The notes below the pieces were generated by a model. The model made no database searches and was not told where the DNA came from. It saw nothing but the letters and a program-made list of their open reading frames with translations. From Pontibacillus sp. HMF3514 (lineage in GTDB: Bacteria; Bacillota; Bacilli; Bacillales; BH030062): a DNA stretch of 64,000 nucleotides. The position numbers were made by a program, and so were the translations under genes. Where the stretch lies: contig NZ_CP047393.1 of NCBI RefSeq assembly GCF_009858175.1, forward strand, positions 248,001-312,000, in the 5' to 3' direction. Shown one piece after another: positions 2,083 to 52,036 of the stretch (its first letter is position 1; every line of letters begins with the position of its first letter).

Positions 2083-2123
2083 AAAAGCTTGAGGCACTTC
2101 TTAGGAGCCTCAAGCTTTTTTTA
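2081..2123. terminator. Bidirectional terminator between membrane protein gene and cadA
   Basis: The hairpin AAGCTTGAGGC/GCCTCAAGCTT has an A-run on one side and a T-run on the other, so it can stop transcription from both strands. Confidence 0.9.
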
Positions 2124-4136
2124 TTTGGTTCTTAACAGCCTTAGTCCATTCAACGTTACAAGTAATGTCGCGCCCATGTCTGCAAATATAGCGATCCATA
2201 ATGTTAGCCAGCCAGGGATTACAAGTAACAACGCTAGTAGCTTAACTATAAGGGCAAAGCTAATGTTTTGTTTAATCACTCGTAATGCTTTGCGGCTGAG
2301 GCGAATGGTAAATGGCAGCTTATCGAGATCATCGGCCATTAGTGCAATATCAGCTGTTTCCAGAGCTGTATCGGTTCCTGCTCCACCCATAGCTACACCT
2401 ACAGTTGATGTTGCTAGAGCAGGGGCATCATTCACACCGTCTCCGACCATTGCAACTGGTCCAACATTTTTCTCATAATGCTTAATCCATTCGAGCTTTT
2501 GCTGAGGAAGAAGTTCTGCTTTGACCTCTTTCACACCAGACTCTTCACCTAGTGATTTTGCGGTAAGGTGATGATCACCTGTTAACATTACAGTTTCTCT
2601 GATCCCTAGTTCATGAATGGTCGATAAAATATTCGTTGCATGTTCCCGTAGTTCATCACGGACTGCAAGAATCACATCAATTTCATGTGATGTACCCGCG
2701 ATCATAACGGTCTTACCTTGTTTCTGTAACGATTCAACAAGCTCAAGAATGTTTTGTGGAACATCCATAGAAAGATCTTCAGTAAATAGTGCGAGAGACC
2801 CTACGTAATACGTTGATCCATTGAACTCTCCAGATATCCCTTTGCCTGTAATCGATTGAAACTCGTCAACCTCTATAGGAGCAATCTCTTCTTCTTGAGT
2901 TCTCTTCAAAATGGCTGATGCTAGAGGATGCTGAGATTTCGTTTCTAATCCCGCGACTTGAGCTAAAATTTTCGAGCGGTTTTCATCGGAAACGAACTTT
3001 AGGTCCGTAACTTCTGGAACTCCTTTTGTTAGCGTTCCGGTTTTATCAAACGCAACGGCTTTAACTTTTGCGACTTGTTCTAGATAGATTCCGCCTTTAA
3101 CAAGCACGCCATTTCGAGCAGCGTTTCCTATCGCAGTTACAATTGAGACAGGGGTTGAAATAACGAGAGCACAAGGACATCCCACAACGAGAACAGCTAA
3201 TCCTTGGTACACCCATGTTGACCAAGAAGCACCACCGATCAATGGAGGTAATATAGCGACAAGAAAAGCGACAGCGATTATTGCTGGTGTATAGTATTTT
3301 GCAAATTGATCCACGAACTTTTGAGAAGGTGCTCTTTCAGCTTGAGCTTCTTCTACAAGGTGAATAATCTTCGCAATTGTTGTATCGTCAACATGTTTGG
3401 TAACCTCAATTTCCAAGAACCCTTCTGTATTCAGTGTTCCTGCAAAAGCTTCGTCACCTTCTGTCTTTTCAACAGGGACAGATTCTCCAGTGATGGCGGC
3501 TTGATTAACTGAGGAGCGACCATCTTTTACAATACCATCCATAGCAATTTTCTCGCCTGGTTTAACAAGCATGATATCGCCAATTTGTATGTCTTCAACG
3601 TCTACGGTCAATTCATTCTGACCGCGTCTGATTGTTGCGGTTTTAGGAGCAATGTCCATGAGTGATCGAATAGACGAGCGAGCTTTATCCATGGAATAAG
3701 CTTCGAGTGCTTCACTAATCGCAAATAAAACAACTACGACTGCAGCTTCTCCCCATTCTCCAATGATTGAAGCACCAATAATGGCAATGGTCATCAAGGT
3801 GCGCATATCAAACTCAAGACGAAGCAGGTTCTTGAACCCAGTTTTAAAGAGGGGGATCCCTGCTGCAAGAATGGCACCGATGAAGAAACCAATGGTAGCA
3901 CCATCATGTTCTCCAACTGTAAAAGAAGAGGTGTATCCACAAACAATGAGAAGGATAGCGAATATTTCTTGCCAATATCGCTTAATAAAAGGTGTCTTTG
4001 GTGTCTCTTCTTTCTTTTCTCCTTCAGGTCTTACCGATAAATTTTCAAAGGCGCCTGCTTTTTCTAAATCCTCTACGGTCGTATCACCATAGACAGAAAT
4101 TTTCGAAGCGCCGAAATTAATTTGAGCATCTTTCAC
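2121..4136 (-). CDS. cadA: Cd/Zn/Co-exporting P1B-type ATPase CadA (translatable part, GTG start after an in-frame UGA)
   Basis: This is a heavy-metal-translocating P1B ATPase that exports Cd(II), Zn(II) or Co(II) across the cytoplasmic membrane. In the 671-residue frame the TGES dephosphorylation loop is at 217-220, the transmembrane metal site CPC at 320-322, and the phosphorylated Asp in DKTGTLT at 364; the GDGVNDAP hinge and the GWLTLWIAI last helix are near the C-terminus. Homology does not begin at 4136: codons continuing upstream to a GTG at 4250 encode a normal N-terminal HMA domain, interrupted once by UGA at 4187-4185. GTG 4136 has no visible ribosome binding site of its own, whereas GTG 4250 has AAAGGAGGTG. 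The gene may make an HMA-less pump by reinitiation, be read through, or be a pseudogene. The pair with cadC argues for metal-induced expression. Confidence 0.85.
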
Positions 4137-4250
4137 ACCATCCAGGTGCTTAACGTTCGTTTCGAACTTTTTGGCACAGTTTGCTCAGGTGAGACCTTCA
4201 ATACGATAAATCTCTTTTTCCTGTTCTGTATCAGCTTGATTCGTCGTCAC
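4137..4250 (-). pseudogene. cadA: N-terminal HMA domain of CadA, interrupted by UGA at the first Cys of CxxC
   Basis: Reading from GTG 4250 (ribosome binding site AAAGGAGGTG seven bases upstream, overlapping the end of cadC by 20 bases) gives MTTNQADTEQEKEIYRIEG, then LT, stop, ANCAKKF and on in frame into the ATPase. The stop codon TGA (4187-4185) occupies the place of the first cysteine in the conserved LTCANCA metal-binding motif. TGA differs from both Cys codons by one base. The frame is otherwise intact, so this is a single nonsense change, a sequencing error, or recoding. Confidence 0.8.
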
Positions 4251-4608
4251 GGTGCTTCACCTCCTTTTGGTGCGTAAAGGCAAGTTGAACGATTTGCTTT
4301 ACGTGATCATCGTCTAAGGAATAGTATGCGAGTTTTCCTTGTTTTCGATAACGTGCTAATCCTAATTTACGTAAATGGCGCAAGTGATGGGAAGCGGTTG
4401 CTGTTGATGAACCCACTATATTCGCTACATCACATACACAAAGTTCCTCTTCCTGTAAAAGGGCATATGCTATCGTGAGACGGGTTCCGTCAGATAGGGC
4501 TTTGAATATATGAGCTACACTTAGCGGCTCTTGATGTTGTAAGGATTCTTTAACACGATTCACCGTATCTTCATGGACACAGGTGACATCGCAAGTATCT
4601 TTAGACAT
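4231..4608 (-). CDS. cadC: ArsR/SmtB-family metal-responsive repressor CadC
   Basis: This is a 125-residue winged-helix repressor that releases DNA on binding Cd, Pb or Zn. The start at 4608 is chosen for its GGAGG ribosome binding site. The N-terminus carries DTCDVTC and the recognition region carries ELCVCDVA; these cysteines correspond to the alpha3N thiolate site of staphylococcal CadC. The helix-turn-helix core follows (SSTATASHHLRHLRKLGL). The C-terminus is acidic and histidine-containing (DDDHVKQIVQLAFTH), in the place of the alpha5 zinc site. It is the first gene of the cadC-cadA operon and overlaps cadA by 20 bases. Two operator palindromes lie just upstream. Confidence 0.9.
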   Translation of the reverse strand: MSKDTCDVTCVHEDTVNRVKESLQHQEPLSVAHIFKALSDGTRLTIAYALLQEEELCVCDVANIVGSSTATASHHLRHLRKLGLARYRKQGKLAYYSLDDDHVKQIVQLAFTHQKEVKHRDDESS

Positions 4609-4624: not shown

Positions 4625-4675
4625 TTCAAATGATCGTTTGAGTATACTATATTCAAATGGGTGTTTGAATGTCAA
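4625..4675 (-). promoter_or_regulatory. cadC-cadA promoter with two CadC-type operators
   Basis: Two TCAAA-N7-TTTGA palindromes are visible, at about 4625-4642 and 4651-4670 (ATTCAAAT...GTTTGAAT). A minus-strand promoter with -35 TTGACA (4675-4670) and -10 TATAGT (4651-4646), spacer 18, overlaps the upstream palindrome. CadC bound there would occlude RNA polymerase. Confidence 0.75.
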
Positions 4676-6133: not shown

Positions 6134-6232
6134 AAGAAAGCCTCCTTTGGCTTTTGAATCCATTATTCAATTTACCCTTATTATTAAGGTGGAAAACGAA
6201 GTGAAAAGGGCAGTGAGTCATTTACCTTTTTA

Positions 6233-6424
6233 CTATAATTTTTCACCCACAGGCTTCGCACACTTCGGACAAACAATCCAGGTTTCATGAAGGGGTTGGT
6301 CACAGCGATTGCAAGTTTCCATTTGGCTTGCTCCACACTTAGGACAGTAGAGGTAAGGGACACGGTATTTATCCGGGAGGGCATTAAGCGTTTCTAAAAA
6401 CTGTTCATCTGACTCTTGTTTCAT
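6233..6424 (-). CDS. Small double zinc-ribbon protein, possibly the C-terminal part of the upstream sigma factor
   Basis: This 63-residue frame starts with an ATG overlapping the stop of the upstream gene (ATGA). It has two CxxC pairs of one ribbon and another pair (CPKCG, CNRC, CPKC), giving a compact zinc-ribbon (DZR-like) tail ending GEKL. Its first 20 residues (EQFLETLNALPDKYRVPYLY) look like the beginning of sigma region 4.1. The same frame stays open upstream for about 35 codons with sigma-linker-like sequence. It could therefore be a separate translationally coupled protein or the 3' half of a frameshifted sigma-zinc-ribbon fusion; I favour the second. Confidence 0.55.
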   Translation of the reverse strand: MKQESDEQFLETLNALPDKYRVPYLYCPKCGASQMETCNRCDQPLHETWIVCPKCAKPVGEKL

Positions 6425-6786
6425 TGTGAGGTCTTCCTGTGTTGCTGACTGTGATGGTAAACGAGCCAGTTGGATGTCTTTATCCTCATTGAGAAGAAAT
6501 CCTTAACAACATTAAGCCAACGTTTCTTCTTTGTATATTCATCACGATATAAGTTCATACAAATGGTACATAACCATGTTTGGAAGGGGCCATCTCCGTC
6601 ATAACGGTTTAACGATCGGAAAACACGGACCCAAGTTTCTTGGAAGAGGTCATCTGCTTCGACCTGTGATTTTGTGAGTCGTAATGAAAATCGATACAAC
6701 ATGGTTTGGTGCTTATGAACGAGCATATCTGCAGCGTATTCATTTCCATTTTGATAGGCGTTAATTAATGCCTTTTCATCTTTCAT
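6421..6786 (-). CDS. ECF-type sigma-70 factor, region 2 (apparently frameshifted)
   Basis: The first 95 or so of 121 residues are a clear ECF sigma region 2: the helix around YRFSLRL is followed by ADDLFQETWVRVFRSLNRY (core RNA polymerase binding) and FQTWLCTICMNLYRDEY (-10 recognition). After KDFFS the frame turns into atypical sequence and stops at 6421. The frame shifted by one base continues LLNEDKDIQLARLPSQS and reaches the start of region 4, then the zinc ribbon. A canonical region 4 helix-turn-helix is missing in both frames. The start at 6786 has an AGGGGGC ribosome binding site. The product is probably inactive or depends on frameshifting. Confidence 0.65.
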   Translation of the reverse strand: MKDEKALINAYQNGNEYAADMLVHKHQTMLYRFSLRLTKSQVEADDLFQETWVRVFRSLNRYDGDGPFQTWLCTICMNLYRDEYTKKKRWLNVVKDFFSMRIKTSNWLVYHHSQQHRKTSQ

Positions 6787-50802: not shown

Positions 50803-50877
50803 TCCAACGTAGCTCAGTGGTAGAGCTATCGGCTGTTAACCGATCGGTCGCAGGTTCGAATCCTGCCGTTGGAGCCA
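50803..50877 (+). tRNA. tRNA-Asn (GTT)
   Basis: Acceptor TCCAACG/CGTTGGA, anticodon GTT, CCA encoded. First intact gene of the cluster. Confidence 0.97.
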
Positions 50878-50879
50878 GT

Positions 50880-50970
50880 GGAGAAGTACTCAAGTGGCTG
50901 AAGAGGCGCCCCTGCTAAGGGTGTAGGTCGCGTAAGCGGCGCGAGGGTTCAAATCCCTCCTTCTCCGCCA
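50880..50970 (+). tRNA. tRNA-Ser (GCT)
   Basis: Acceptor GGAGAAG/CTTCTCC, anticodon GCT, long variable arm, CCA encoded. Confidence 0.97.
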
Positions 50971-50976
50971 TTTCAT

Positions 50977-51051
50977 GGCCCGTTGGTCAAGTGGTTAAGA
51001 CACCGCCCTTTCACGGCGGTAACACGGGTTCGAATCCCGTACGGGTCACCA
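50977..51051 (+). tRNA. tRNA-Glu (TTC)
   Basis: Acceptor GGCCCGT/ACGGGTC, anticodon TTC, CCA encoded. Confidence 0.97.
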
Positions 51052-51056
51052 TGGAA

Positions 51057-51133
51057 GGTCCGGTAGTTCAGTTGGTTAGAATGCCTGCCTGTCACGCAGG
51101 AGGTCGCGGGTTCGAGTCCCGTCCGGACCGCCA
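51057..51133 (+). tRNA. tRNA-Asp (GTC), copy 1
   Basis: Acceptor GGTCCGG/CCGGACC, anticodon GTC, CCA encoded. Identical to the copy at 57214-57290. Confidence 0.97.
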
Positions 51134-51140
51134 TCTATTT

Positions 51141-51215
51141 TGGGCCATAGCCAAGCGGTAAGGCAACGGTTTTTGGTACCGTCATGCGCTGGTTCGAATC
51201 CAGCTGGCCCAGCCA
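51141..51215 (+). tRNA. tRNA-Gln (TTG)
   Basis: Acceptor TGGGCCA/TGGCCCA, anticodon TTG, CCA encoded. Confidence 0.97.
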
Positions 51216-51256
51216 AGATTTCCTTTTTTAAAGAACATTGATTCTTACATTTTAGT

Positions 51257-51332
51257 GAGCCATTAGCTCAGTTGGTAGAGCATCTGACTTTTAATCAGAG
51301 GGTCGGAGGTTCGAATCCTCCATGGCTCACCA
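51257..51332 (+). tRNA. tRNA-Lys (TTT)
   Basis: Acceptor GAGCCAT/ATGGCTC, anticodon TTT, CCA encoded. Confidence 0.97.
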
Positions 51333-51344
51333 CTTTCACACTTA

Positions 51345-51429
51345 GCGGGTGTGGCGGAATTGGCAGACGCGCTAGACTTAGGATCTAGTGTCTCTTGACG
51401 TGGGGGTTCAAGTCCCTCCACCCGCACCA
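51345..51429 (+). tRNA. tRNA-Leu (TAG)
   Basis: Acceptor GCGGGTG/CACCCGC, anticodon TAG, long variable arm, CCA encoded. Confidence 0.97.
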
Positions 51430-51527
51430 TTCATATTTTGTTACAAAAGATGAATTACACTGGTTGTGTACATTGCTGTGACTAACACGGCATTTTATTT
51501 TGCTCAATTTGCTGAAACACAAGTTGA

Positions 51528-51614
<87 letters not shown>

Positions 51615-51682
51615 AAGAAAAATAAAAAAGGTATTGCATCAAGTTGTAGCGTGTGATACAATGAAATATGTCGCTTCAAAAG

Positions 51683-51759
<77 letters not shown>

Positions 51760-51767
51760 TTTATTAT

Positions 51768-51844
51768 CGGGAAGTAGCTCAGCTTGGTAGAGCACATGGT
51801 TTGGGACCATGGGGTCGCAGGTTCGAATCCTGTCTTCCCGACCA
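51768..51844 (+). tRNA. tRNA-Pro (TGG)
   Basis: Acceptor CGGGAAG/CTTCCCG, anticodon TGG, CCA encoded. Confidence 0.97.
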
Positions 51845-51875
51845 TCGAGATCTTTCAATTAAAACATTTAAACAT

Positions 51876-51949
51876 GCGGGTGTAGTTTAGTGGTAAAACC
51901 TCAGCCTTCCAAGCTGATGTCGTGGGTTCGATTCCCATCACCCGCTCCA
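51876..51949 (+). tRNA. tRNA-Gly (TCC)
   Basis: Acceptor GCGGGTG/CACCCGC, anticodon TCC, CCA encoded. Confidence 0.97.
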
Positions 51950-51959
51950 TTATCATTAT

Positions 51960-52036
<77 letters not shown>

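Follow-up and report, generated by a model that had tools for sequence, protein, structure and literature searches.

In all likelihood, the cadA gene carried by a 64,000-nucleotide stretch of the Pontibacillus sp. HMF3514 genome (contig NZ_CP047393.1, positions 248,001 to 312,000; the whole stretch is called the window below, and positions are counted from its first letter) encodes a selenoprotein, in which SelB and a predicted selenocysteine insertion sequence (SECIS) made of two hairpins in the downstream mRNA would place selenocysteine (Sec) at the UGA codon at 4187 and thereby create the U-x-x-C metal site of a heavy-metal pump. The evidence was read from the sequence and consists of the codon itself, its conservation among relatives, the Sec genes of the host, and the hairpins with their covariation. 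The host genome is a single contig of 3.98 Mb with a completeness of 99.95%.

The cadA gene and its internal UGA codon

The cadA frame opens at a GTG codon (4250-4248) with AGGAGGTG directly 5' of it and runs for 21 codons before the TGA, so that the read-through product is VTTNQADTEQEKEIYRIEGLT-TGA(4187-4185)-ANCAKKF.... The original prediction had placed an in-frame TGA exactly at the first cysteine of the CadA CxxC motif, and this proved correct; the frame beyond it is open as stated, with a length of 687 codons up to the TAA at 2123-2121 rather than the 683 given. Pfam matches in the read-through comprise the heavy-metal-associated (HMA) domain (PF00403, residues 15-64), E1-E2_ATPase, and Hydrolase, with both the HMA domain and the pump domains intact. 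The part after the UGA scored 601.7 bits against TIGR01525, the family of heavy-metal P1B ATPases (cut-off 346.25), and 522.4 bits against the cadmium subfamily TIGR01512 (cut-off 313.5). The same part stayed below the cut-offs of the ZntA equivalogs NF008262 (607.7 vs. 1005) and NF033775 (538.2 vs. 1240), and the pump was therefore not classed as ZntA proper. The closest solved chain to the read-through is the zinc-transporting ATPase ZntA (4umv), to which residues 14 to 708 align, including the HMA domain, the CPC and DKTGT motifs, and the C-terminal D-GAT region. The difference from CadA/ZntA exporters lies in the predicted Sec replacing the first HMA cysteine: the transmembrane CPC is untouched, and Sec would replace one of the two N-terminal metal-site ligands. 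Judging from the family and the adjacent ArsR/SmtB regulator, CadA presumably exports Zn, Cd, or Pb. A plasmid search with the post-UGA part of CadA returned, among the matches listed, pumps of at most 65% identity.

Conservation of the UGA codon and its exchange with cysteine

The same UGA was sought in relatives, as the original prediction had proposed, and was found in a same-genus genome (G002, apparently Pontibacillus marinus), whose cadA is 95% identical to ours, as well as in many more distant genera. A Pontibacillus marinus cadA locus (L124) shares 97% N-terminal identity with the gene in the window, and selB of its genome agrees with that of G002 in contig position and score. Among the 30 best cadA orthologue loci of 61 genomes (our own and 60 relatives), this codon is TGA in 16 and TGT or TGC in 14. 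At least 17 genomes of this set, our own included, carry TGA-cadA, a number that adds G037, counted from its TGA flag, to the genomes whose loci were read. Within 397 genomes of the order, at least 50 TGA-flagged cadA loci occur in at least 49 genomes; for both sets the counts are lower bounds, given among the matches listed. The sequences of 40 of the 50 flagged loci were retrieved, and every one has TGA at the predicted Sec codon of cadA; four of the 50 were left out of that reading, and one of them (G091) was read later as L208. At the level of the phylum, 31 of 398 genomes had a match, of which 12 were TGA-flagged, nine of these lying outside the class. Among 80 named cadA loci, from which L211 (a spurious TGA match), L183 (misread), and L230 (unreadable) were left out, TGA was found in 10. 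The carriers are Pontibacillus marinus, Salinibacillus xinjiangensis, S. kushneri, Mesobacillus maritimus, M. persicus, Peribacillus cavernae, Bacillus marasmi, two unnamed Bacillus species, and a metagenome-assembled genome (MAG) labeled Desulfoscipio geothermicus.

In all cadA loci that were read, the alternative to TGA was a cysteine codon. When the two forms were placed on a cadA tree of 94 rows, 18 changes were needed, 13 of which were forced by well-supported branches; the tree was built by a quick method, and 29 of its 89 inner branches are unresolved. The Cys form is also that of Pontibacillus litoralis (L188), in whose genome selB was not found. Two side observations belong here. The Desulfoscipio geothermicus MAG (L186/L206) holds a Bacillales-type TGA-cadA of group I (defined below), by transfer or mis-binning, and distant paralogues in the 61-genome set have stops that include TAA, TAG, and two TGA (G017, G055).

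This distribution bears on the simplest alternative, a recent nonsense mutation or sequencing error followed by reinitiation at GTG 4136, which would yield a pump that lacks the metal-binding domain. The window does allow a restart, a 671-aa open reading frame beginning at that GTG, and CadA-family pumps are often able to work without the N-terminal domain. Nevertheless, this explanation is barely credible, as at least 49 of the 397 genomes and 16 of the 30 loci read have their TGA at this very codon, the hairpins downstream are conserved, and GTG 4136 is not: the codon at that place is GTT in 36, GTG in 10, GTA in four, and GTC in one of 51 group I sequences, which is no sign of a conserved reinitiation device. 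A sequencing error or chance was excluded by the occurrence of the same TGA in a separate genome of the genus and in distant genera, and a recent pseudogene was rejected on the conservation of both the codon and the hairpins.

Selenocysteine machinery and its link to TGA-cadA

The four genes for which a genome check had been suggested, selA, selB, selC, and selD, are all present in the host and lie within about 7 kb. The tRNA-Sec gene (selC) was located at C1:1887425-1887517 with 68 bits (cut-off 47) and the anticodon TCA according to ARAGORN; the scores were 357.7 bits for selB (cut-off 242), 557.6 bits for selA (cut-off 268), and 405.7 bits for selD (cut-off 125). Neither a missing Sec system nor a stop unique to this strain, the combination named in the original prediction as telling against recoding, was thus found. 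Across the 61 genomes, selB was present in 17 of 17 TGA-cadA genomes (among the matches listed) compared with 29 of 61 overall (Fisher 1e-7, a value that ignores the relatedness of the genomes), and in the order set it was present, among the matches listed, in 47 of 49 TGA-cadA genomes compared with 179 of 397. One TGA-cadA genome, G205 (480 contigs, 96% complete), showed no selB and has a tRNA-Sec. That UGA is merely read as sense throughout this host is contradicted by cadC, which adjoins cadA upstream, overlaps it, and terminates at an ordinary TGA (4233-4231).

The host selD gene (G000:C1:1891374-1892303, L047) has a single in-frame TGA of its own close to the N-terminus, with two possible hairpins after it. 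When selD was sought near selB in our own genome and 20 relatives, it was found at 17 of 21 loci and not at the other four, and the TGA was present in 17 of 17, that is, it recurs in 16 relatives. G016 and G103 have TGA-selD, and no TGA-cadA was seen in them. The search for other selenoproteins of the host covered SelD, formate dehydrogenase, and R1, a covariance model built from the hairpin pair described below. Formate dehydrogenase was rejected as the reason for keeping the Sec system, as none of three family matches (two above the cut-off) has an internal stop. The R1 search of 41 genomes under stricter filters matched cadA alone in our own genome at E<=0.5 and therefore revealed no other selenoprotein; its remaining matches were mostly cadA orthologues, Cys types included, along with six marginal others (E 0.06-0.33).

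Two hairpins downstream of the UGA

For the region after the UGA, we compared 56 distinct Sec-type cadA sequences, divided into group I (n = 51, window included) and group II (n = 5), with 25 distinct Cys sequences, counting columns from the U of the UGA. Group I carries a proximal hairpin, H1, and a distal hairpin, H2 (Table 1). The original prediction had noticed GUUCG-AAA-CGAAC from the 18th base after the UGA and set it aside as no SECIS. That hairpin is present, its innermost G-C pair depending on a variable loop base, and it turned out to be part of the conserved signal; the second and more conserved hairpin, with a GG loop at 4149-4135, had been missed. In H1, six base pairs are possible in 29 of the 51 sequences, and the mismatch of pair 20-34 in 22 of them, including the window, leaves a 4-bp core that is complete in 49 of 51. 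The H2 stem is complete in all 51 group I sequences compared with none of the 25 Cys sequences, and its 14-mer CACCTGGATGGTGT occurs exactly in 44/51 group I, 0/25 Cys, and 0/5 group II sequences.

Pairing in the two hairpins holds in 95.7% of 561 cells (51 sequences), compared with 28-47% for slid versions of the same pattern. Both sides of a pair changed in 11 cells, seven at pair 21-33, three at 24-30, and one at 41-51, and none of 500 shuffles reached covariation as high; H1 accounts for 10 of these cells, at two of its pairs. Synonymous constraint was ranked in 43 full-length group I genes over 344 usable codon columns, and codons of the two hairpins took ranks 1, 4, 5, 6, and 7. These are codons +14 (CTG in 42/43; rank 1), +13 (CAC; rank 4), and +16 (GGT; rank 5) in H2, and +7 (TTC; rank 6) and +10 (AAC; rank 7) in H1, ranks 2 and 3 being taken by AGY-type serine codons elsewhere in cadA. 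The same ranking in 15 Cys-type genes puts codon +7 at 269 and codon +10 at 136 of 274.

Spacing of the hairpins in cadA and selD

The bacterial SECIS (bSECIS) model describes a loop of 3-9 nt on a stem of 4-16 bp, located 16-37 nt from the UGA, with a G as the first or second loop base, often followed by G or U; the same source states that some SECIS do not fit the model (PMC13188914). Group II cadA is as the model asks, with one hairpin, a loop of AGUUU or GGUUC, and a distance of 16 nt. The H2 hairpin of the window cadA resembles the model in its loop G followed by G or U. The difference is that two hairpins stand in a row, with the GG or GU loop at 40 nt in group I or at 47 nt in group III, which consists of eight Sec cadA loci from outside the class. 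In group III, columns 12-24 pair with 30-42 and columns 45-50 with 56-61, and the distal loop has GU in 8/8; the covariation is weak, with three cells in eight sequences and 37 to 44 of 500 shuffles as high (change and covariation measures). The selD alignment (n = 17) likewise supports a pair of successive hairpins, of which the distal has a GUN loop in 17/17 at 33 nt from the UGA, inside the spacing of the model, and all six of its compensatory cells fall in the distal hairpin, with 0/500 shuffles as high.

Without H1, the distance of the distal hairpin from the UGA would be 23 nt in group I, 16 nt in group III, and 20 nt in selD. All of these distances are within 16-37 nt, and H1 may thus be read as taking up spacer length. 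We tentatively propose, at somewhat less than even confidence, that Sec-CadA and Sec-SelD of the Bacillales share a bipartite SECIS, and that the HMA selenolate ties soft-metal export to selenium supply. In such a signal, the proximal 'spacer' hairpin would hide 13-31 nt, and a distal GG/GU hairpin at 33-47 nt would work as one at 16-23 nt.

A different division of labor, in which H1 alone is the SECIS bound by SelB and H2 serves as an enhancer or pause element, appears possible though doubtful. It draws support from the spacing (21 nt) and the G position of H1, with G first in the loop, both as in the model (PMC13188914), and from covariation that is clearer in H1 than in H2; H1 agrees with the model in loop size and stem length as well, its G being followed by A. 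Against it stand the stronger nucleotide-level conservation of H2 and its G-G loop, the GU loop on the distal hairpin in selD and group III, and the contrast between H1-type pairing in 11 of the 25 Cys sequences and H2 in none.

Weighing the selenoprotein reading of cadA

Several observations speak against a Sec-containing CadA decoded through two hairpins. The H1 loop begins with GA, not GG or GU, and H2, which has the GG loop, lies at a distance beyond the published spacing. The capacity of the H1 core to pair in Cys sequences too has been given above, and H2 has a single compensatory cell. The control of synonymous constraint in Cys genes ranks codons +7 and +10 only, amino acids varying at +13, +14, and +16. 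Folding of the single sequence is mildly better than that of shuffles (z -2.4 for 71 nt and -1.6 for 61 nt), and Rfam gave no match at the cadA hairpins at E<=1. Minimum-energy folds of selD show both hairpins side by side in about 9/17, our own gene not among them; this count was made by eye on single sequences, and the two-hairpin form rests on the alignment. Intact hairpins, with H2 and the H1 core complete, also occur in two Cys-type cadA genes, those of Neobacillus pocheonensis (L138) and Bacillus sp. MCCB 382 (L157), both from genomes with selB. We take these for fossil SECIS, pointing to a change from Sec to Cys, and since hairpins are kept in such genes, their presence by itself is no proof of Sec in a given genome. 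Finally, G173 has a TGA-cadA (L097) with the H2 14-mer and has neither selB nor tRNA-Sec. The gene sits on an 8.7-kb contig, two more cadA copies there are without an internal stop, and we tentatively read it as a recent acquisition.

The same G173 gene is what favors reading of the UGA by a near-cognate or suppressor tRNA (e.g., for Trp) or by programmed read-through that needs no selenium. We consider such decoding very improbable in view of the strong co-occurrence of TGA-cadA and selB, the constant use of Cys as the other form in the loci read, the SECIS-like hairpins, and the TGA in every selD found near selB. Taken together, the conserved TGA, the complete Sec system, and the hairpins support recoding to Sec among the four candidates that the original prediction had listed, and the same evidence disfavors the other three, namely nonsense mutation, sequencing error, and plain suppression.

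Proposed mechanism

According to what is expected of the families involved, Zn, Cd, or Pb would take CadC off the promoter and allow transcription of cadC-cadA. SelB, we infer, would bring Sec-tRNA-Sec to the ribosome at UGA 4187, where the downstream mRNA carries the predicted two-hairpin SECIS. With the GG expected of a bacterial SECIS in its loop, H2 would be the hairpin bound by SelB; H1 would fold the spacer, and H2, 40 nt off, would act as if it were about 23 nt from the UGA. The product would be a P1B-type metal pump in which Sec-Ala-Asn-Cys replaces the Cys-x-x-Cys of the N-terminal HMA domain. As for the role of Sec in the pump, we infer that the selenolate may bind soft metals (Cd, Pb, Hg) more tightly, may form a redox-sensitive Se-S bond with the neighboring cysteine, or both.

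It is also conceivable, and in our judgment unlikely, that Sec is indeed inserted and that the UGA serves above all to switch pump output by selenium, with translation ending at codon 22 and less pump being made when selenium is scarce. The competition between Sec insertion and termination was reportedly studied in E. coli. The early position of the UGA would suit such a switch, as would the finding that termination competes with insertion, which requires sufficient selenium (PMC4513850); the frequent Sec/Cys swaps (18 changes) fit a role as ligand or in chemistry equally well.

Relation to known selenoproteins and significance

A UxxC selenoprotein family named 'cation-transporting ATPase, E1-E2' has already been predicted (PMC2398784, PMC5029168, PMC9312934, PMC13188914). 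It corresponds to TIGR01525/COG2217, with ABB15669.1 as an example (PMC9312934, PMC13188914), and Table 3 of PMC5029168 gives 25 organisms and 32 proteins. The window CadA, a heavy-metal P-type ATPase with a predicted Sec in UxxC, resembles this family and can be assigned to it on the TIGR01525 match and the UxxC motif. In contrast to the published passages on the family, which come without named Bacillales members and without SECIS details, our analysis covers many Bacillales genera, the alternation of Sec and Cys, the link to selB, and a test of the hairpins. A survey of 2006 reports three selenoproteins in Firmicutes/Bacillales, and the word 'ATPase' is absent from its main text (PMC1794560). 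How exactly such selenoproteins act in metal detoxification is said to call for further study (PMC13188914). In the open-access literature, we found no experimental study of a Sec-CadA and no description of a two-hairpin bacterial SECIS, which is weak evidence of absence. The protein family itself is thus known, and it is the two-hairpin form of the SECIS that looks new.

When UGA is taken only as a stop, cadA is called broken or is started late, and the metal-binding domain is lost. The predicted Sec is recurrent at the metal site of this exporter in many Bacillales and has been exchanged with Cys repeatedly, so that the cadA genes offer natural Sec/Cys pairs for testing what selenium contributes to metal export. 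A two-hairpin SECIS, if real, would explain why SECIS searches based on spacing could miss such genes and would offer a new approach to the question of how SelB locates its hairpin.

Control region and other features of the window

The features of the cad region are collected in Table 1. The promoter-like sequence upstream of cadC is one of 14 such sites found in the region, compared with 6.7 expected. The inverted repeat lying over it is a probable CadC operator by analogy with other cad operators, and the CadA pump is probably under CadC control.

Table 1. Coordinates of cadA, its predicted recoding signal, and the upstream control region in the window.
Feature	Position	Strand	Remarks
cadA	2121..4250	-	Zn/Cd/Pb-type P1B ATPase; 709 residues, predicted Sec at residue 22; GTG start
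UGA codon, predicted Sec	4185..4187	-	First Cys position of HMA CxxC
H2, distal hairpin of predicted SECIS	4135..4149	-	(G/A)CACC-UGGAU-GGUGU; columns 39-43 with 49-53
H1, proximal hairpin of predicted SECIS	4153..4169	-	Columns 19-24 with 30-35; 5-nt loop, G first
Ribosome binding site of cadA	4258..4265	-	AGGAGGTG, within the end of cadC; read from sequence
cadC	4231..4608	-	ArsR/SmtB-type metal-sensing repressor; NF033788 93 bits (cut-off 55); HTH_5
Sigma-70-like promoter	4646..4675	-	TTGACA-18-TATAGT; consensus match 11/12
Inverted repeat over promoter	4651..4670	-	ATTCAAA-N6-TTTGAAT; 7-bp arms

Elsewhere in the window, an open reading frame resembling an extracytoplasmic function (ECF) sigma factor (6786-6421, reverse strand; region 6184-6786, family named by eye) seems to be broken off before region 4. 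It is followed by a frame (6424-6233, reverse strand) that, by eye, starts like region 4 and goes on to a CxxC sequence resembling a zinc ribbon, and the interruption looks like a frameshift or rearrangement. Twelve tRNA genes are clustered at 50803-52036; the G+C-rich stretch that follows them at 52-56 kb is perhaps rRNA.
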